This document shows, one piece after another, positions 25,772 through 33,838 of a stretch of DNA of 64,000 nucleotides. Every line of letters starts with the position of its first letter. The stretch's first letter is position 1. The notes under the pieces were generated by a model that did not search any database, was not told the origin of the DNA, and saw only the letters and a program-made list of their open reading frames with translations. The stretch is from Ruegeria sp. PrR005 (lineage in GTDB: Bacteria; Pseudomonadota; Alphaproteobacteria; Rhodobacterales; Rhodobacteraceae): contig NZ_JAAGOX010000032.1 of NCBI RefSeq assembly GCF_010500245.1, positions 1-64,000 on the forward strand, written 5' to 3'. Made by a program: the position numbers and the translations under genes.

Positions 25772-26092
25772 ATGTCCACCGTAGCCGTCACCGACGAAAC
25801 CTTTGACGCCGAAGTCAAGAACTCGGACATCCCCGTTGTGGTGGATTTCTGGGCGGAATGGTGCGGCCCCTGCAAGCAGATCGGCCCGGCGCTGGAAGAG
25901 CTGGCAAACGAGTATGCGGGTAAGGTGAAGATCGCCAAAGTCGATGTGGACAGCAACCCGAATTCGGCCGCTGCCATGGGCGTGCGGGGCATTCCGGCGC
26001 TGTTCATCTTCAAGGATGGCCAGGTGGTGTCGAACCGGGCCGGCGCGGCGCCGAAAGCGGCATTGCAGAACTGGATCGACAGCTCGATCTGA
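25772..26092 (+). CDS. trxA: Thioredoxin 1
   Basis: This 106-residue thioredoxin has the redox-active WAEWCGPCK site (about residues 28-36), the buried aspartate in VVVDFWAEW, the cis-proline segment [11 protein letters not shown] and the final helix. It reduces protein disulphides and supports ribonucleotide reductase and methionine sulphoxide reductase in the cytoplasm. An AGGAGA ribosome-binding site lies upstream. The longer frame to 25628 reads through addA and is rejected. A terminator follows. Confidence 0.97.
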
Positions 26093-26114
26093 GCCCGGCC
26101 AGACCCGGAATTCA

Positions 26115-26146
26115 GAAGCGCCCCAAGCGGGCGCTTCTTTCGTTTT
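26115..26146 (+). terminator. Rho-independent terminator of trxA
   Basis: A perfect 9-bp stem (GAAGCGCCC at 26115-26123 with GGGCGCTTC at 26129-26137) is followed by TTTCGTTTT, 22 bp after the trxA stop. Confidence 0.88.
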
Positions 26147-26191
26147 GACCGTTTTGTACGCGGTCTGGCACCCGGATTGACCGTTTTGTAC
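26145..26191 (+). repeat. Tandem 15-bp direct repeat, possible operator
   Basis: The 15-base sequence TTGACCGTTTTGTAC occurs perfectly at 26145-26159 and 26177-26191. The copies start 32 bp apart, about three helical turns, on the same face of DNA. They lie between the trxA terminator and the Lin0512 pair, 93 bp before the first start codon, and share weaker similarity beyond the core. A repressor or activator site is the simplest explanation. Confidence 0.75.
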
Positions 26192-26283
26192 AGCGAATTT
26201 GGCCCCATCCAAGGACCGGTTCTGGTGCTGGTATCCGGCACGCGATAGGTCAGGATCGGGCGCAGCAAGATCGGAGGAACGAA

Positions 26284-26634
26284 ATGGCCAAGACACGGGT
26301 GCTGGTGGAGTTCGGCATGGGTTCGTCGCTCAGGCGTGAGGACTATACCGAGGCGGCGCTGAGGGCGCTGAAGGATGCGCTGTGGCACAACTCGGTCAAC
26401 ATGGCCGAGTTGTTCGGCTTTCCAAAGCAGGCGATGATCGTCGATGCCGAGATCGGGGTGCAGAAGCCCGACGCGGTGGATGTGGCGCGGCTGGCGGAGG
26501 TGTTCCCTTATGGTCAACCCAACATCACCGTCCGGCAGGGCGGGCTGGACATCGAAAAACCGCAGGGGGGCGGGCGCACGGTGATCGCCAATGCGGCCGT
26601 GGTGGTGTCGTTCGACATGGAGGCCGTGCAATGA
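26284..26634 (+). CDS. Lin0512-family protein, copy 1
   Basis: The 116-residue protein has the Lin0512 family pattern: a VEFGMGSSL segment near residue 9, an EDYTEAALRALKDAL helix (about 21-35) and a GGLDIEKP turn near residue 83. The family's molecular function is unknown. It is immediately followed, with a 4-bp overlap, by a second related copy, so the pair probably forms a hetero-oligomer. A strong GGAGGAACGAA ribosome-binding site precedes the ATG. Compared with copy 2, it has ARG-GLU where copy 2 has GLY-GLN before the DYT motif, so one copy may have lost an active-site residue. Confidence 0.75.
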   Translation: MAKTRVLVEFGMGSSLRREDYTEAALRALKDALWHNSVNMAELFGFPKQAMIVDAEIGVQKPDAVDVARLAEVFPYGQPNITVRQGGLDIEKPQGGGRTVIANAAVVVSFDMEAVQ

Positions 26635-26993
26635 CCGAGCGCCGGATGATCCTGGAGATGGGAACGGGCAACGACCTTTATGGTCAGGACTATACCAAGG
26701 CCGCGCGCCGGGCGGTGCAGGATGCGTTGCACCATTCCTCGATCACGTTGTTTTCGAAACTGGGGATCGATTCTGCCGAGATGCGGGTGCAGGTCACGAT
26801 CGGGGTGCAGCGGCCTGAAGAGGTGGATTGCGCCGCCGTTGCCGCCGAGCTGCCGCGCGGCCGGGCCGAAGTGCGCGCCGTCATGGGGGGCCTTGATGTT
26901 GAGGACGCCGAGACCGGTAACCGCCATGTGATCGCCACGGCGGCGGTTGAGGCATTCCTGCCCGACCTGACCGGCAAGTACCGGCTGTCTTGA
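26631..26993 (+). CDS. Lin0512-family protein, copy 2
   Basis: The 120-residue protein keeps the family features well: ILEMGTGNDLYGQDYTKAA at residues 7-25, an RAVQDALHHSSI helix, and MGGLDVEDAETG near residue 84. It aligns end to end with copy 1 (for example RAVQDALHHSS with RALKDALWHNS). Function is unknown. ATG overlaps the previous stop (ATGA), so the two are translated together. Its frame could open at 26382, but that overlaps copy 1 and is a shadow. Confidence 0.75.
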   Translation: MTERRMILEMGTGNDLYGQDYTKAARRAVQDALHHSSITLFSKLGIDSAEMRVQVTIGVQRPEEVDCAAVAAELPRGRAEVRAVMGGLDVEDAETGNRHVIATAAVEAFLPDLTGKYRLS

Positions 26994-27114
26994 CCGCTAA
27001 GGGGCCGATTTCATTTCCGTTGACAGGGGATCGGCCTCACGCTCAATATCCGGGCAACGGACTCGGGTGAGTGCTGAAACATGCGCGAAGACTTCGGAAC
27101 AGCAGAGACAGGGC

Positions 27115-27217
27115 GCCGGGCGACCGGCTGCGACCTCGTCGTCTGACAGAAAATTGGGTGTCCTGCCCCGAGGGCAGATGGCGGTCCGGTAAAAACGGGC
27201 CATGGTCCCAATTTCTG
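27115..27217 (+). other. Structured leader-like region before hyuA
   Basis: Within the 240-bp gap before hyuA lie a 5-bp GC hairpin closed by a GCGA tetraloop (27115-27128), a CTGCCC-CGA-GGGCAG hairpin (about 27163-27177), and a long-range inverted repeat (CAGAAAATTGGG at 27147-27158 with CCCAATTTCTG at 27207-27217, one extra A). hyuA also lacks a good ribosome-binding site just upstream of its ATG. These suggest a structured leader or protein operator. I do not recognise a known riboswitch class. Confidence 0.35.
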
Positions 27218-27233
27218 ATTCCGGTTTACTTTC

Positions 27234-29333
27234 ATGCACAACACGAACGGGTGTCGTATCGCCATAGATATCGGCGGCACGTTTACCGATACCGTCCTGG
27301 TCGATGAGGCGGGCCACAGCCTTGCCACCACCAAGACGCCCACAACGCCTGAGAACCCGACGCTGGGCGCGCTTGAGGGCGCGCGGCGGGTGCTGGAGGA
27401 GGCGGGCGCCCATTGGGACCAGATCGGCGGTTTTATCCATGGCACCACGCTGGCCACAAACGCGCTGATCGAGCGGCGCGGCGCAAAGGTGGCGACGGTG
27501 ACCACCGAGGGGTTCCGGGATATTCTGGAGATCGCCTATGAGCGGCGGTACAGCCAGTACGATATCGACCTGGTGAAACCGGATCTGATCGTGCCCCGGT
27601 CGCGCGCCTTTACCATCGGCGGGCGCATGGATGCCCGGGGTCGGGAACTGGAGCCGCTGGACGAGGCGGGTGTTGCGGCGCTGGCCGCCGCGCTGGAGCG
27701 CTGCGGCGCCGAGGCGGTGGCGGTCTGCCTGATGCATGCCTATGCCAACCCCGCACATGAAATCCGCCTGCGCGAGATGCTGGGGGCCGCGCTGCCCGGG
27801 CTGGTGATTTCGCTGTCGCACGAGGTGAGCCCCGAGGCGCGCGAGTTCGACCGGCTGTGCACGACCATCGCCAATGCCTATGTCCTGCCGCAGATGGCCA
27901 GCTATCTGGCGGATTTTCAGGCGCGGTTCACGGCCGAGGGACTGATCTGTCCGATCCTGATGATGACGGCGGGCGGGGGCATGACCACGCTGGACACCGC
28001 CGCGCGGCTGCCAATCCGGCTGGTCGAATCGGGGCCGGCGGGCGGTGCCATTCTGGCGGCGCGCATCGCCGCCGAGACTGGCGCGCACGAGGTGTTGAGT
28101 TTCGACATGGGCGGCACCACGGCAAAGCTGTGCCTGATCGACGGGTTCCGGCCGCAGACCGCGCGCCGGTTCGAGATCGCGCGGGCGGCGCGGTTCATCA
28201 AGGGGTCGGGGATGCCGGTGCGCATCCCGGTGATCGAGATGATCGAGATCGGGGCAGGGGGTGGCTCCATCGCGCATGTCGACCGGTTGGGCCGGGTGCA
28301 GGTAGGGCCGGAAAGCGCCGGATCGAAACCGGGGCCAGCGGCATTCGCCAAGGGCGGGACCGCGCCGACGGTCACCGATGCCGATGTGTTGCAAGGGTTG
28401 ATCGAACCTGCACGTTTCGCAGAAGGACGGCTGAAGATCGACGAGGCGGCAGCGGAGGCGGCCGTGATGCGCGATGTGGGCGCGCCGCTGGGGCTGGATC
28501 CGGCAGCAGCGGCGCGGGGCATCAGCGAGATCGTGGACGAGAACATGGCAGGCGCGGGCCGGATGCATGCGGTGGAATCGGGCAAGGACCTGGGCGCGCG
28601 GCTGATGATCGCCTTTGGCGGCAACGGGCCGTTGCATGCCACGCGGGTGGCGCGGCGGGCACAGGTCGGGCGCATCCTGATCCCGCGCGATCCGGGTGTC
28701 GGGTCTGCGGTCGGGTTCCTGTTTGCGCCGGTGTCGTTCGAGATCGTGCGGTCCCGCTATGACACGCTGGATACGCTGGATATTGGCGGGTTGAACGCGT
28801 TTTTCGACGCGATGATAGATGAGGCGCAGGCGGTGGTCCGGGCCGGTGCGCCCGAAGGGCCGCTGACGATCCGGCGGCAGGCCTTCATGCGCTATCACGG
28901 GCAGGGGCACGAGATCGAGATCGCCTTGCCGGACCGGCCACTTGAGGCGGCGGATATCGCCGATCTGCGCCGCGCGTTCGAGGCGGAGTATAGCCGTCAA
29001 TTCAGCCGCGCGGTGCCGGGGATGACGATCGAGATCCTGAACTGGGCGCTGGATGTCTGCTCGGCCGCGCCCGCGCTGCGGCAGTATCCGCAGGTTCAGG
29101 GGCGGCAGGCGGCCCGACCTGTCGGGAAGCGGTGCATTCTGTGCGACGTGACCGGCGACTGGCGCGCGGCGGAGGTTTTTGAACGCGCGGCACTGGAGCC
29201 CGGCGATCACCTGTCCGGGCCCGCGCTGATCATCGAACCGCAGACCACGACATTCGTCAGCGCCGATTTCGGCGCGCAGGTGGATGGCAGCGACAACATA
29301 TGGCTGACACGCAAGGCGGAGGACGCGCAATGA
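27234..29333 (+). CDS. HyuA-type hydantoinase/oxoprolinase subunit A
   Basis: The 699-residue protein is the ATP-binding subunit of a two-subunit hydantoinase/oxoprolinase-type enzyme. It has actin-like phosphate motifs RIAIDIGGTFTDTVLVDE (residues 8-25) and LSFDMGGTTAKLCLIDG (about 290), plus the glycine-rich EIGAGGGSIA (about 345). Members open cyclic amides (N-methylhydantoin, 5-oxoproline, caprolactam) or carboxylate ketones (acetone, acetophenone), all at the expense of ATP. The substrate here cannot be told from sequence. It starts a four-gene overlapped set with hyuB, an aminotransferase and a racemase-like gene. Confidence 0.88.
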   Translation: MHNTNGCRIAIDIGGTFTDTVLVDEAGHSLATTKTPTTPENPTLGALEGARRVLEEAGAHWDQIGGFIHGTTLATNALIERRGAKVATVTTEGFRDILEIAYERRYSQYDIDLVKPDLIVPRSRAFTIGGRMDARGRELEPLDEAGVAALAAALERCGAEAVAVCLMHAYANPAHEIRLREMLGAALPGLVISLSHEVSPEAREFDRLCTTIANAYVLPQMASYLADFQARFTAEGLICPILMMTAGGGMTTLDTAARLPIRLVESGPAGGAILAARIAAETGAHEVLSFDMGGTTAKLCLIDGFRPQTARRFEIARAARFIKGSGMPVRIPVIEMIEIGAGGGSIAHVDRLGRVQVGPESAGSKPGPAAFAKGGTAPTVTDADVLQGLIEPARFAEGRLKIDEAAAEAAVMRDVGAPLGLDPAAAARGISEIVDENMAGAGRMHAVESGKDLGARLMIAFGGNGPLHATRVARRAQVGRILIPRDPGVGSAVGFLFAPVSFEIVRSRYDTLDTLDIGGLNAFFDAMIDEAQAVVRAGAPEGPLTIRRQAFMRYHGQGHEIEIALPDRPLEAADIADLRRAFEAEYSRQFSRAVPGMTIEILNWALDVCSAAPALRQYPQVQGRQAARPVGKRCILCDVTGDWRAAEVFERAALEPGDHLSGPALIIEPQTTTFVSADFGAQVDGSDNIWLTRKAEDAQ

Positions 29334-30979
29334 CACCGACCGATACCCGTTTGCAGGTGATGTGGAACCGGCTGCTGGCCGTGGTCGAGGAACAGGGACA
29401 GGCGCTGATCCGGGCGGCGTTTTCGCCCATCGTGCGCGAGTGCGGCGATATCTCGGCCGGGATTTTTGATCTTAACGGCCGGATGCTGGCGCAGGCGGTG
29501 ACCGGCACGCCGGGTCACATCAACACCATGGCTGAGGCGGTCAAGACCTTGCGCGGGCGCTTTCCGATACAAGAGATGAAGCCCGGCGATATCTATATGA
29601 CCAACGATCCCTGGATCGCATCCGGGCATCTGAACGATTTCCTGCTGATGATGCCGGTGTTCTACAAGGGGCGGGTGGTGGGGTTCACATCCTGCACCTC
29701 GCACCTGGTGGACCTGGGCGGGCAGGGCATGGGGCCCGAGGGGACCGATATCTATGACGAGGGGCTGCTGATCCCGCCCTGCCGGTTGATGGCGGCGGGC
29801 GCGCTGAACACGTTCCTGATGGAGATGGTCAAGGCGAACTCGCGCGAGCCGGTGGCGAACGAGGGGGATATCTATGCGCTGATCGCCTGTTGCGAGACCG
29901 GCGCACGGCGGCTGGCCGACATGATGGCCGAGTTCGGCATCGACGATCTGGACCGGCTGGCCGATTACATCATCGACACGTCGTACCGGGGCACGCTGGA
30001 GGCCATTGCCGAGCTGCCGCAGGGCCGGTGGCACGCGACGCTGAAGGTCGACGGGTACGAGCAGGAGATCGAGTTGTGTGCGGCGCTGACGGTCTCGGCC
30101 GACCGGGTGGAGGTGGATTTCACCGGCACCTCGGGCCTGTCGCGGAAGGGGATCAACGTACCGCTGAACTATGCCACCGCGTACACTGTGTTTGCGCTGC
30201 GCTGCATCATCGGACCAGAGATTCCCAACAATGCCGGGTCGCTGGCACCGTTCCATGTGAGCGGGCCGGAGAACTGCATCCTGAACGCGCGGCATCCGGC
30301 GCCGGTTGCGATGCGGCATACGCTGGGACAGATGACGCCCGATCTGGTCTATGGCTGCCTGTCGCAGGCCCTGCCGGGCAGGGTTCCGGCCGAAGGGGCG
30401 TCGTGTATGTATGACCTGCCGCTGAGGCACACACCCGAGGCGGTGGCGCGCGGTGGCACGCAATTCGCACTGGAACTGGTGTTCAGCGGCGGAACCGGGG
30501 CGCGGCCGGGGCTGGATGGGCTATCGGCCACGGCCTTCCCCTCGGGCGTGTGGGGATCGCAGGTGGAAACCACCGAGGCGGTGGCGCCCGTGCTGATCAC
30601 CCGGCGCGAGCTGCGGCAGGACAGCGGCGGTGCCGGACGGCTGCGCGGCGGGTTGGGCCAGTGGATCGAGATGCGCTCGGCCACCGATGAGGATGTGATG
30701 CTGTTCCTGTCGGTCGAACGGGTGCTGAACCCGGCGCGCGGGCGGCAGGGCGGTGGCACCGGGGCCGCCGGGCGCATCCGTATTGGCGAGGATGGGGCAG
30801 ACCTGCCCGGCAAGGGCGAAATCCGGGTGCCGGCGGGCGAGACGCTGATCTTTGAAACGCCGGGCGGGGGTGGGTTCGGGCCAGCGGGAGAGCGGGACCG
30901 GGCGCAGGTTCTGCGCGATCTGGCGGAAGGGTTGATCAGCGCTGAGGCCGCGCGCGATATCTACGGGGTAGAGCCATGA
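29330..30979 (+). CDS. HyuB-type hydantoinase/oxoprolinase subunit B
   Basis: The 549-residue protein is the B subunit that partners HyuA. It has the metal-site region MTNDPWIASGHLNDF (about residues 90-104), the GSLAPFHV segment (about 300), and the glycine-rich C-terminal FETPGGGGFGPAGERD. ATG at 29330 overlaps the hyuA stop by 4 bp, and its own stop overlaps the aminotransferase start. Separate A and B genes match bacterial N-methylhydantoinase and caprolactamase rather than fused 5-oxoprolinase. Confidence 0.88.
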   Translation: MTPTDTRLQVMWNRLLAVVEEQGQALIRAAFSPIVRECGDISAGIFDLNGRMLAQAVTGTPGHINTMAEAVKTLRGRFPIQEMKPGDIYMTNDPWIASGHLNDFLLMMPVFYKGRVVGFTSCTSHLVDLGGQGMGPEGTDIYDEGLLIPPCRLMAAGALNTFLMEMVKANSREPVANEGDIYALIACCETGARRLADMMAEFGIDDLDRLADYIIDTSYRGTLEAIAELPQGRWHATLKVDGYEQEIELCAALTVSADRVEVDFTGTSGLSRKGINVPLNYATAYTVFALRCIIGPEIPNNAGSLAPFHVSGPENCILNARHPAPVAMRHTLGQMTPDLVYGCLSQALPGRVPAEGASCMYDLPLRHTPEAVARGGTQFALELVFSGGTGARPGLDGLSATAFPSGVWGSQVETTEAVAPVLITRRELRQDSGGAGRLRGGLGQWIEMRSATDEDVMLFLSVERVLNPARGRQGGGTGAAGRIRIGEDGADLPGKGEIRVPAGETLIFETPGGGGFGPAGERDRAQVLRDLAEGLISAEAARDIYGVEP

Positions 30980-32058
30980 TCCGCCCGGTTCCCCATGTGG
31001 CGGCGATCACCGCCTATGCGCTGGCACAGTTGCAGGCGCCCGAAGGCAAGCGGCTGGTGTCGCTGTCCCAGAACGAGAGCCTGCGCCCGCCCAGCCCGGC
31101 GGCGATCCGGGCGGCAGCGGGGGCGCTGGAGGCCGGGCATCTCTATCCCGACCCCGACTGGTCGGACCTGCGGGCGGCGCTGGCGCCAGTGCATGGTATC
31201 GCGGCGGGGGATATCCTGTGCGGCAGTGGTTCGATGGAGTTGATCGCCTGTCTGGCACGCGCCTATGCCGATCCGGAAAATGCTGTTCTGGCGCCCGCGC
31301 ATGCCTATCCGTTCTTTCGCACCGCCGCGCTGCTGGCGCGGGCGCGGTATGACACGGCACCCGAGGTCAACAGACAGGTGTCGGTGGATGCGTTGCTGGC
31401 AGCGGTGCGACCCGACACGCGGCTGGTTTTTGTCGCCAATCCCGGCAACCCGACCGGCACGCGAATTGCGCGGGCCGATCTGCTGCGGCTGCGCAACGGG
31501 TTGCCCGGTGACGTGTTGCTGGTGATCGACGAAGCCTATGGCGAGTTCGCCGACGGGTTGGACGAGCCGATGTTCGATCTGGTCGCGCGCGGCGACACGG
31601 TTGTGCTGCGCACCTTGTCCAAGGCCTATGGCCTGGCGGGGGCGCGGGTGGGCTGGGGCCTGTTTCCGCCTGCGGTGGCGCGCGTGATCCGCAAGGTCAT
31701 GTCGCCCAACAATATCCCGGCGGCGAGTCAGGCGGCGGCGGCGGCAGCGGTGGCCGATCAGGCGTATATGCGCGAGACCTGCGCGCTGACGGCGGAAATG
31801 CGCGACAGCTTTGCCGGGCGGTTGCGGCAATCGGGGTTCGACGTGCCCGAAAGCCATACCAATTTCGCGCTGATCCGCTTGGGTGACCCTGACAGGGCGC
31901 AAGGGGCCGACGCCGCGCTGCGCGCCGTGGGGATCATCCTGCGGCCGCAAGGCGGGGTCGGGTTGGGCGATTGCCTGCGGGCGACCGTGGGGCAGGCTGG
32001 GGCGATGGAGGCCACGGCAGAGATTTTGGAACATTGGGCGAGAAAGGAAACAACATGA
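30976..32058 (+). CDS. HisC-like PLP-dependent aminotransferase
   Basis: The 360-residue protein belongs to fold-type I aminotransferases of the histidinol-phosphate type. It has the ANPGNPTGT motif (about residue 155), the aspartate in VIDEAYGEF (about 185) and the PLP-binding lysine in TLSKAYGLAGARVG (about 215). The C-terminal arginine region GDCLRATVG is present. Its location between hyuB and a racemase-like gene argues for a catabolic or specialised substrate rather than histidine synthesis. A decarboxylase of the CobD type is an alternative. Confidence 0.82.
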   Translation: MIRPVPHVAAITAYALAQLQAPEGKRLVSLSQNESLRPPSPAAIRAAAGALEAGHLYPDPDWSDLRAALAPVHGIAAGDILCGSGSMELIACLARAYADPENAVLAPAHAYPFFRTAALLARARYDTAPEVNRQVSVDALLAAVRPDTRLVFVANPGNPTGTRIARADLLRLRNGLPGDVLLVIDEAYGEFADGLDEPMFDLVARGDTVVLRTLSKAYGLAGARVGWGLFPPAVARVIRKVMSPNNIPAASQAAAAAAVADQAYMRETCALTAEMRDSFAGRLRQSGFDVPESHTNFALIRLGDPDRAQGADAALRAVGIILRPQGGVGLGDCLRATVGQAGAMEATAEILEHWARKETT

Positions 32059-32816
32059 CAGAGTCGCGCGGGCGGGCCCGGTTCGGGATCCTGGTGCCTT
32101 TTACCAATACGAATCTGGAACCCGATATGGTGCTGTTGCGCCCGTCCGGCGTGTCGCTGCATTTCGCGCGGCTGGGCGGGTATGATCAGGACGAGATTCC
32201 CGATGCCGAGCAGATGCATGGGCTGGGCGCCAGCGATCTGGACGAACCGCTGCACCTTTTGCAAGGGGTGCGGCCGGATGTGATCCTGTATGGCTGCACC
32301 TCGGCGACGCTGACCCATGGCCCGGCGTTCGACCGGGACCTGGCCGCGCGGATCCGGGCCGAAAGCGGCGCGGCGACGGTGACGGCTGCGGGCGCGCTTG
32401 TGCATGCGCTGACGACACTGGGGGTGACGCGGATCGGCTTTGCATCGCCCTATGTGCGGGCGATCAACGACATGGCGGTGGGGTTTCTGGGCGAAACCGG
32501 GTTTGAAACCGTGGCGCGGTCCGAGGTGACCGAGACGTTGGACAATTACGGGCAGGGCGAAATGGGGCCGGACCGGGTGTTTGATCTGGGACTTGCCGCC
32601 GATCACCCGGAGGCGCAGGCGATCGTGCTGTCCTGCACCGACATGCGCAGCGTGGAGACCATTGGGCGGTTGGAACAGGCGGTTGGCAAGCCTGTGATCA
32701 CCTCGAACCAGGCGATGGCGTTCCAGGCGATGCAGATGGCCGGGATCGGTGAGCCGGTGGCGGGCTATGGCCGGTTGCTGGAACTGGCGCGGCTGGAGGC
32801 GGGTGTGGCGGCTTGA
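32055..32816 (+). CDS. Asp/Glu racemase / maleate isomerase family protein
   Basis: The 253-residue protein belongs to the two-cysteine racemase superfamily that includes maleate cis-trans isomerase and arylmalonate decarboxylase. The catalytic cysteines are in LYGCTSAT (about residue 79) and VLSCTDMRS (about residue 197), and the N-terminus has the RFGILVPFTNTNLEPD substrate-loop motif typical of the maleate isomerase branch. It is the last gene of the hyuAB run and starts inside the preceding stop. Reaction and substrate are unknown. Confidence 0.82.
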   Translation: MTESRGRARFGILVPFTNTNLEPDMVLLRPSGVSLHFARLGGYDQDEIPDAEQMHGLGASDLDEPLHLLQGVRPDVILYGCTSATLTHGPAFDRDLAARIRAESGAATVTAAGALVHALTTLGVTRIGFASPYVRAINDMAVGFLGETGFETVARSEVTETLDNYGQGEMGPDRVFDLGLAADHPEAQAIVLSCTDMRSVETIGRLEQAVGKPVITSNQAMAFQAMQMAGIGEPVAGYGRLLELARLEAGVAA

Positions 32817-32833
32817 ACGGGTGCAGATCCGCC

Positions 32834-32865
32834 AAAAGAAAAAGCCGCCCGGTTTCGAGCGGCCC
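32834..32865 (-). terminator. Terminator of the DUF1127 gene
   Basis: On the minus strand a GCCGC/GCGGC stem (32844-32848 with 32859-32863) is followed by TTTTTCTTTT. It lies 27 bp after the DUF1127 stop and only 18 bp after the converging racemase-like gene, so it may insulate both. Confidence 0.8.
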
Positions 32866-32891
32866 TTCTATCGGTCTGCCATGGGACTTGA

Positions 32892-33086
32892 TCAGAGCTT
32901 GGCGATGTCGGCGCGGGTCAGGCCGATGTCGTCCAGCTGGGCGTCGGTCAGGACCGACAGCGCCTTGCGGGTCAGACGGCTCTCGTTCCACGAGACGACG
33001 GCGTCTTTTGCCGAGATGAAAAGGTCCACCACGCGGAGAACGGTGACTGCTCCGAGCGGCGCTGTGGTGCTGGTGGTATATGCCAT
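32892..33086 (-). CDS. DUF1127-domain small protein
   Basis: The 64-residue protein ends with the DUF1127 pattern: an Arg/Leu-rich helix (ESRLTRKALSVL) followed by TDAQLDDIGLTRADI. In other alphaproteobacteria such small Arg-rich proteins bind RNA and tune sRNA turnover, phosphate and carbon metabolism; that role is only a family inference here. The N-terminal half is hydrophobic and less typical. AGGAACGCAA precedes the ATG. Confidence 0.82.
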   Translation of the reverse strand: MAYTTSTTAPLGAVTVLRVVDLFISAKDAVVSWNESRLTRKALSVLTDAQLDDIGLTRADIAKL

Positions 33087-33223
33087 TTGCGCGTTCCTAG
33101 ATTGAAACAGCCGACCCTGCGTCGGTTGTGAGGCTCATGTAGGAGAAGACCCTGAGTCTTACAAATGCCCGGTTTACAGTCCCGCTTTGCAGCCAATGCA
33201 TAACGATTGGGCAAAACGCATAA

Positions 33224-33253
33224 CTTGCCCTTGCGCCGGGGACGGCCCATATA
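33224..33253 (+). promoter_or_regulatory. Candidate sigma-32 (RpoH) promoter of hslV
   Basis: CTTG (33224-33227) and CCCATATA (33246-33253) lie 18 bp apart, close to the heat-shock consensus CTTG...CCCATNT, and about 30 bp before the hslV start. HslVU is heat-shock controlled in many Proteobacteria, which supports the reading. Confidence 0.55.
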
Positions 33254-33280
33254 CGGGCGCAACACAGGATGGAGGCAGAC

Positions 33281-33838
33281 ATGGCAGACGATCAGTTCCC
33301 CGGCTGGCACGGGACCACGATCATCGGCGTCAAGAAGGGCGGCGAGGTGGTGATTGCGGGCGATGGCCAGGTCAGCCTGGGCCAGACCGTGATCAAGGGC
33401 ACCGCCCGCAAGGTGCGGCGGCTGAGCCCCGGCGGCTATCAGGTGGTGGCGGGCTTTGCCGGGTCTACGGCGGATGCGTTCACCCTGCTGGAGCGGCTGG
33501 AGGCCAAGCTGGAGGCAACGCCGGGACAGCTGGCGCGCGCCTCGGTCGAGCTGGCCAAGGATTGGCGCACAGACAAGTACCTGCAAAAGCTGGAGGCGAT
33601 GCTGATCGTCAGCGACGGGCAGGACATGTTCGTGATCACCGGCGCGGGCGACGTGCTGGAACCAGAACATGACGTGGCGGCCATCGGCTCGGGCGGGAAT
33701 TTCGCGCTGGCCGCCGCGCGAGCGATGATGGACAGCGACAAGAGCGCCGAAGAGGTGGCCCGCGCCGCCATGGCGATTGCCGCCGATATCTGCGTCTATA
33801 CCAACGGCAATCTGACGGTCGAGAAGATCGTCAAATAA
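33281..33838 (+). CDS. hslV: HslV peptidase (ClpQ)
   Basis: HslV forms the double-ring peptidase core of the HslUV protease. The 185-residue protein has a short propeptide (residues 1-10, ending WHG) before the catalytic N-terminal threonine in [10 protein letters not shown]. The [18 protein letters not shown] and [19 protein letters not shown] segments are also present. ATG at 33281 is chosen for its GGAGG site. It is separated from its partner hslU by 1.45 kb with two opposite-strand genes. Confidence 0.97.

Follow-up and report, generated by a model that had tools for sequence, protein, structure and literature searches.

A candidate regulatory leader peptide on an uncharacterised hyu-type catabolic operon of Ruegeria and related bacteria

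The DNA analysed here (hereafter, the window) is a stretch of 64,000 nucleotides (nt) from contig NZ_JAAGOX010000032.1 of Ruegeria sp. PrR005. It carries the genes hyuA and hyuB followed by genes for a HisC-like aminotransferase and a racemase-like protein, and these are preceded by a short open reading frame (ORF; 27081-27146, + strand) that looks like a new regulatory leader peptide acting on an uncharacterised catabolic operon, for which we infer both a substrate and a regulatory step. The original prediction had joined the four genes to two upstream Lin0512 paralogues in an undescribed six-gene set, from which the leader ORF was absent. The loose six-gene guess gives way to a unit that can be tested, in which a conserved leader with a defined motif follows a promoter element and has the operon as its target.

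A conserved peptide ahead of hyuA

The leader ORF encodes 21 amino acids (MREDFGTAETGRRATGCDLVV) followed by a stop codon, ends with RRATGCDLVV and is separated from hyuA by a spacer of 87 nt (27147-27233). Counterparts were sought in 71 leaders, i.e. the window and 70 of 80 loci that are the best of 195 matches in an alignment of the racemase-like protein and are related to one another (17 are from Ruegeria); nine loci devoid of a + strand match to the HyuA N-terminus and one with less than 100 nt upstream were left out. A first, stricter search found a short ORF in 63 of the 71. When the eight informative positions of the motif RR.TGCDLV are scored, 55 leaders reach 8, nine reach 7, two reach 6, three reach 5 and two reach 4, i.e. 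64 of the 71 score at least 7. The best score among 1420 mononucleotide-shuffled leaders, which preserve base composition only, is 5 (obtained 36 times), and the reverse strand also gives 5 at best (1/71).

The constraint on the motif follows the codons. Among the 66 leaders scoring at least 6 (61 distinct 27-mers), the mean diversity at codon positions 1, 2 and 3 is 0.094, 0.060 and 0.576 within the motif, vs 0.671, 0.647 and 0.662 in the ten codons before it. Positions 1 and 2 are thus constrained and position 3 is not, which shows that selection acts on the peptide and not on the RNA. Its N-terminus and tail are variable. In 55 of the 66 leaders, RR is preceded by a start codon at a distance of 10 or 11 codons, and 8 leaders have none between 8 and 13 codons before it; the stop codon comes one residue after LV in 47 and after a tail of 2-10 amino acids in 13; the distance from stop to hyuA ranges from 38 to 111 nt. 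The peptide has no match in Pfam or NCBIfam. An N-terminal extension of HyuA was considered and rejected, as the frame of the leader relative to hyuA varies (28, 24 and 8 of 60).

In the sequences searched, the motif is almost confined to this genomic context. In the survey sample of 149 genomes of the family, 13 of which carry close orthologues of the racemase-like protein (54-100% identity; hereafter, racemase-positive), a degenerate DNA pattern for the motif matches 12 genomes, once each and always before hyuA, and its reversed control matches none. Eleven of these 12 genomes are racemase-positive, and the twelfth (G053) has hyuAB directly behind the motif, near a contig end. Of 385 genomes sampled from the class, 3 match a slightly wider pattern; G763, the only addition, carries it ahead of hyuA-hyuB-hisC-racemase. 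In a broader set of 260 sequences (3.13 Mb, many of them overlapping and most of them chosen for hyu or Lin0512), 99 matches scoring at least 7 were found in 76 distinct contexts: 96 before hyuA, 2 before hisC and 1 elsewhere (L239). Because the two loci with a leader before hisC (L135 and L137, 8645-8922) lack hyuAB and have the leader ORF directly ahead of the HisC-like gene, the leader belongs to the operon and not to HyuA. Three plasmid records with incomplete gene tables list no gene at the equivalent place.

A putative promoter lies upstream of the leader ORF (27020-27049, + strand), with a -35 hexamer TTGACA (27020-27025), an 18-nt spacer and a -10-like hexamer CAATAT (27044-27049). Of the 66 leaders scoring at least 6, 58 have their start codon at a distance of 9-12 codons from RR, and 54 of these 58 carry TTGAC at most 110 nt before that start, vs a mean of 4.6 and a maximum of 10 in 100 mononucleotide shuffles. 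The distance, about 61 nt, is 51-67 nt in 52 of the 54 and 58-67 nt in 49. Eighteen nt after TTGAC, the -10-like hexamer has A at position 2 in 35 and T at position 6 in 34 of 45 non-redundant rows.

The start of hyuA is devoid of a Shine-Dalgarno (SD) sequence in the window, and an SD-like sequence precedes this gene in only 1 of 70 loci, vs 71 of 71 for hyuB, 34 of 75 for hisC and 73 of 79 for the racemase gene (245 of 485 for other called genes and 12% of random positions). Most of the leader ORF starts displayed likewise lack one. The spacer shows no fold common to the loci (median z -0.93; 16 of 66 below -2) and no strong motif apart from a pyrimidine bias. A known riboswitch ahead of hyuA was rejected, the whole window giving only a tRNA at Rfam gathering thresholds. 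Also set aside was a three-way-junction fold of the window spacer, which recurs in the congener and not in the other spacers whose folds were inspected.

The operon, its enzymes and its partners

All four genes lie on the + strand: hyuA (27234-29333), hyuB (29330-30979), the gene of the HisC-like pyridoxal phosphate (PLP) aminotransferase (30976-32058) and that of the racemase-like protein (32055-32816), linked by three 4-bp ATGA overlaps. The ORF check confirmed all six genes of the original prediction, all on the + strand, at the coordinates given there, with their order and the overlaps of the last four. Of the 80 loci, 71 keep all four genes in this order on one strand, and the figure is 55 for the 58 loci that span at least 18 kb; among the nine incomplete loci, five are ended by contig ends, two lack hyuAB and two lack the HisC-like gene. 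Record titles assign the loci to Ruegeria (17), Nioella, Roseobacter, Tateyamaria, Boseongicola, Silicimonas, Roseovarius and others; a few titles, mostly of metagenome-assembled genomes, fall outside Rhodobacterales. On the evidence of this gene order, hyuA-hyuB-hisC-like-racemase is a conserved operon. Its presentation as undescribed stands, for neither the gene set nor its leader is described in the titles and abstract openings of the open-licence literature searched.

Pfam assigns the four products to the Hydantoinase_A, Hydantoinase_B, Aminotran_1_2 and Amdase families. HyuA carries PF05378, PF01968 and PF19278, and HyuB matches PF02538 over most of its length (493.7 bits). All four proteins fall under every NCBIfam equivalog cut-off examined. 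The best NCBIfam match of HyuA and HyuB is caprolactamase CapAB (NF050156/NF050157; 429 and 195.9 bits vs a cut-off of 1000), and in the PDB both subunits score highest against N-methylhydantoinase 7hk5 and against 6yra (5-oxoprolinase/hydantoinase), with carboxylases next. Caprolactamase, 5-oxoprolinase and N-methylhydantoinase are thus the best-scoring families for both subunits, the caprolactamase scores lying far under the equivalog cut-offs. Since 7hk5 and 6yra come ahead of the carboxylases, ring opening is likelier than carboxylation, and HyuAB stands closer to the ATP-dependent ring-opening hydrolases than to the carboxylases. The original prediction had left both activities open, ring opening or carboxylation of ketones; the former gains from these matches and the latter is less favoured. 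That HyuAB is a carboxylase of the acetone or acetophenone type seems very unlikely to us: the enzymes share a superfamily, and acetophenone carboxylase ApcC (249 bits) and the acetone carboxylase beta subunit are matched too, but both subunits have their best structural matches among the hydrolases, the best NCBIfam family is caprolactamase, and the operon holds a single A-type and a single B-type gene.

The HisC-like protein scores 241.7 bits against TIGR01141, under the equivalog cut-off of 276.55. The racemase-like protein scores under the equivalog cut-offs of both EutA (TIGR02990; 112.9 vs 318 bits) and arylmalonate decarboxylase (NF052327; 80.6 vs 225 bits). Its AlphaFold model (mean predicted local distance difference test score, 87.3) superposes on maleate isomerases 4fq5 and 2xec with template modelling (TM) scores of 0.83-0.85, on arylmalonate decarboxylases with 0.71-0.80 and on hydantoin and allantoin racemases with 0.53-0.62, and all 10 orthologues aligned retain C81 and C194. 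Its earlier assignment to a two-cysteine racemase/maleate isomerase family is borne out: in the model, the protein has the maleate-isomerase/arylmalonate-decarboxylase fold, hydantoin racemases being more distant. Identity with hydantoin racemase HyuE is rejected by the same TM scores and by best matches to Amdase, EutA and maleate isomerase.

The Pseudomonas hydantoin operon is arranged hyuA-hyuB-hyuC-hyuE. The present operon resembles it by its adjacent HyuA and HyuB and by a member of the wide Asp/Glu-racemase superfamily, but its isomerase is not hydantoin racemase-like and it has an extra aminotransferase and a leader peptide. No gene for the N-carbamoylase HyuC was found among the four operon genes and the neighbour proteins scanned, the rest of the genome not having been searched for hyuC. 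The mismatch with the classic hydantoin operon that had been pointed out therefore holds, by the absence of HyuC from the operon and by an isomerase that is not HyuE. In the succinamopine Ti plasmid pTiEU6, HyuAB genes were proposed to open lactam opines and mmgE lies in the same region; asparaginase and opine transporters are found there, a word search of the article text returned no racemase, and neither a HisC-like gene nor a leader was seen in the parts consulted (PMC6733357).

In relatives, genes for a MmgE/PrpD protein and a D-2-hydroxyacid dehydrogenase are often found downstream of the operon, and N-demethylation genes sometimes. Neighbours in the 58 long loci include a D-2-hydroxyacid dehydrogenase (36), PrpD (27), DAO-GcvT (8), a DapA-like protein (7), a SBP5 transporter protein (5), MlrC (4) and a MttB-like protein (3). 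The nearest solved relative of the PrpD partner is iminodisuccinate epimerase 2hp0; those of the MttB-like partner are 4yyc, 2qne and glycine betaine methyltransferase 9yce. In Ruegeria sp. SCSIO 43209, a seemingly complete cluster comprises a peptide-type ATP-binding cassette transporter, hyuA, hyuB, the HisC-like gene, the racemase gene and then genes for a MttB-like protein, a D-2-hydroxyacid dehydrogenase, sarcosine-oxidase-like subunits, MmgE/PrpD, LysR, a flavin adenine dinucleotide-dependent oxidoreductase and a class-V aminotransferase. The window genome carries a second locus (G000:C22, about 243.7-251.6 kb; L190, 4747-12615) with genes for a class-V aminotransferase, a DAO-GcvT demethylase-like protein, a LysR-like protein (assigned by likeness, without a family match), MmgE/PrpD and a MttB-like protein, and these genes sit beside the hyu operon in some relatives. 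In the 149 genomes, PrpD (at least 50% identity) occurs in 12 of 13 racemase-positive vs 4 of 136 negative genomes (p=1.5e-13) and the MttB-like protein (at least 69% identity) in 6 of 13 vs 1 of 136 (p=8e-7), with identity limits set after viewing the lists and Fisher tests that ignore phylogeny.

Some loci show other company. On a plasmid of Ruegeria sp. THAF33 (L193), the operon lies beside genes for urate hydroxylase, xanthine dehydrogenase and a purine-type permease, which may be a coincidence or reflect a purine-derived substrate. In L138, L141, L143 and L153, it is accompanied by a MlrC-family (M81) protein and a peptide-type transporter protein. On a plasmid of Ruegeria sp. B32 (L191, 17839-20070), a NHLP-clan protein and a radical S-adenosylmethionine (radical-SAM) methyltransferase involved in maturation of ribosomally synthesised and post-translationally modified peptides (RiPPs) are encoded by the second and third genes after the racemase gene, in what looks like a separate RiPP locus.

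Proposed model and its alternatives

We give an even chance to an overall reading in which the Lin0512 pair and the hyu operon are two separate units and the operon, made of a promoter, a leader and a hyuA without SD sequence, encodes a ring-opening pathway whose first gene is controlled through the leader. The transcript would have a short 5' end and run through the leader ORF of about 21 codons into hyuA, hyuB, the HisC-like aminotransferase gene and the gene of the two-cysteine isomerase. HyuAB would use ATP to open a ring of the lactam or hydantoin type; configuration would be set by the isomerase together with the PrpD-family protein; the HisC-like enzyme would transaminate; where present, the D-2-hydroxyacid dehydrogenase would reduce the 2-oxo acid, and MttB-like, DAO-GcvT and sarcosine-oxidase-like enzymes would remove N-methyl groups. 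The substrate may be an N-methylated cyclic amide, carboxylated, or a betaine-derived amino acid; the operon probably breaks down a ring-shaped amino-acid derivative. Degradation of homarine, ergothioneine and opines was also considered as the substrate class. By analogy with TnaC of the tryptophanase operon, the ribosome reading the leader peptide (RR-x4-D-L-V) would control entry into hyuA, probably by sensing a metabolite; that the leader controls the operon is itself probable.

A bolder proposal, which we hold tentatively and on balance doubt, is that RR-x-TGC-D-LV defines a new class of metabolite-sensing nascent peptide: in marine Rhodobacterales and further Alphaproteobacteria, binding of the substrate (probably N-methylated and cyclic) or of an intermediate by the translating ribosome would switch on a HyuAB operon that lacks an SD sequence. 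Combined with PrpD, D-2-hydroxyacid dehydrogenase and MttB/demethylase modules, the operon would degrade N-methylated cyclic amides by a route not yet described. Sensing of a metabolite by the peptide would lengthen a short list of nascent-peptide sensors and offer a direct handle on the substrate. The operon and its PrpD and MttB partners point to a degradation route in marine bacteria for which the same literature search, over titles and abstract openings, found no description.

Several observations weigh against the overall reading. No close orthologue of the D-2-hydroxyacid dehydrogenase was found in the window genome, the best match having 40% identity over part of the protein. The MttB-like gene is beside the operon in 4 of the 80 loci and demethylation genes are adjacent in few, the partner statistics disregard phylogeny, and the 80 loci are related. 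A scan of 26000-33300 for consensus sigma-70 promoters (TATAAT-like hexamers, spacing of 16-18 nt) returned none, the element being weaker at -10. The spacers contain no shared hairpin or terminator and thus no classical attenuation switch is visible. The position of the leader stop codon is not fixed, and 6 of 66 leaders have none before hyuA. Within the motif, other residues sometimes take the place of Cys, Gly and Thr; scores of 5 or less are found for 5 of 71 leaders, and two racemase-positive genomes lack a pattern match (G073, with a degenerate RRATGANLV, and G109, where the motif is absent).

The leader could be translated merely to recruit ribosomes, hyuA being reached by termination and reinitiation without any sensing. 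This fits a hyuA that in 69 of 70 loci has no SD-like sequence ahead of it and a leader ORF lying just upstream, but it would not need a conserved peptide, and codon positions 1 and 2 hardly vary over the nine motif codons; furthermore, 38-111 nt from stop to hyuA is long for reinitiation. We consider such plain coupling unlikely. Distinctly unlikely, in our judgement, is an action of the peptide in trans, as a subunit, an inhibitor or a scaffold peptide modified by the operon enzymes. Strong conservation at the peptide level would agree with this, as would the persistence of the leader with the operon where hyuAB is absent from the locus, a MlrC-family (M81 peptidase) gene that neighbours the operon at 7 of the 80 loci, and the one plasmid record where a RiPP radical-SAM gene with its own NHLP-type partner is the third gene after the racemase gene. 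The variable N-terminus and tail tell against a trans function, as do the absence of radical-SAM families among two sets of ten neighbour proteins scanned and of any Pfam or NCBIfam match of the peptide, and a cis-acting leader typically occupies such a site, with a promoter element on one side and a gene without SD sequence on the other.

Control by a leader peptide in cis, the reading preferred here, has known counterparts. TnaC has a fixed stall site or stop codon; the stop position of the present leader is not fixed, which argues against a strict TnaC copy, and its sequence is different. A further counterpart, CutF-CutO, comes from Rhodobacter capsulatus, which also belongs to Rhodobacterales. 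According to the parts of the reports consulted, tnaC-tnaAB is likewise a catabolic operon behind a short leader peptide with conserved residues, and translation of that leader senses a metabolite (PMC8429421, PMC10941005, PMC3902921). CutF-CutO, as its report describes in the parts consulted, is comparable in that a nascent chain controls the gene that follows, whose ribosome-binding site is shielded, but CutF is an exported copper-sensing protein acting with an mRNA stem-loop, whereas a 21-mer without a shared stem-loop is found here (PMC9973294).

The Lin0512 pair and the flanks

The two Lin0512 genes, lin1 (26284-26634) and lin2 (26631-26993), lie on the + strand just upstream of the operon, overlap by one ATGA and fall outside the hyu unit. 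Both pass the PF09585 cut-off (113 and 122 bits), and TIGR02058 (cut-off 56.85) is passed by lin2 (59.1) and not by lin1 (48.2); 3c8l is a solved relative. A gap of 240 bp, holding the promoter-like element and the leader ORF, separates lin2 from hyuA.

Lin0512 occurs in 40 of the 149 genomes, as two copies each, and together with the racemase-like protein in 8. Of these 8, the window genome and its congener alone have the two adjacent; the remaining six have them on separate contigs (4 drafts) or at least 500 kb apart (2). Four relatives (G073, G043, G038 and G075) have an empty site, addA-trxA-lin1-lin2-hslV, without hyu genes. Because three of them have a small minus-strand gene between lin2 and hslV, as in the window, the hyu cassette can be placed between lin2 and that gene. 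With flanks aligned separately, the right flank of the window aligns to the empty-site sequence from about 32833-32835, and no direct repeat of at least 9 bases was found between the two cassette ends. Among the 80 loci, only that of the congener, Ruegeria sp. XHP0148, has Lin0512. On these data, Lin0512 is rejected as a member of the hyu unit: the expected joint conservation of the pair with hyuAB fails, and the six genes do not make one set. The two Lin0512 genes are most likely unrelated neighbours, and the pair would be an older resident downstream of which a self-contained hyu operon was inserted in this genus.

That all six genes form one functional set, as originally proposed, is now hardly credible. 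It could appeal to the adjacency in the window genome and its congener and to the presence of Lin0512 in 8 of 13 racemase-positive vs 32 of 136 negative genomes (p=0.006, rising to p=0.034 when the genus of the window is left out). The four empty sites and the single locus among 80 contradict it, as do the promoter element and leader proper to hyu and the finding that, at 15 of 48 loci examined, no more than two genes away from the Lin0512 pair lies cobO.

At these loci (including L077, L078, L079, L098, L232, L240 and L241), bluB or cobQ is often nearby; CobO, BluB, CobQ and CobW were confirmed by NCBIfam in L079, and CobO and BluB in L077, the labels elsewhere resting on likeness to L079, and 3 of the 48 loci gave no Lin0512 pair identified as such. 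In a sample of the phylum, Lin0512 occurs in 18 of 299 genomes, 17 of which have cobA/cobO vs 217 of 299 overall, a weak association. The titles and abstract openings of the open-licence literature searched gave no description of a Lin0512 function. The repeated placement near cobalamin genes suggests a link of the pair with cobalamin metabolism and is a new lead for it.

The whole region is flanked upstream by addB-addA and a thioredoxin gene and downstream by hslV and hslU, names that we presume from the sequences. Between the cassette and hslV lies the small minus-strand gene (32892-33086), which encodes 64 amino acids and has a counterpart at the empty site of three relatives.

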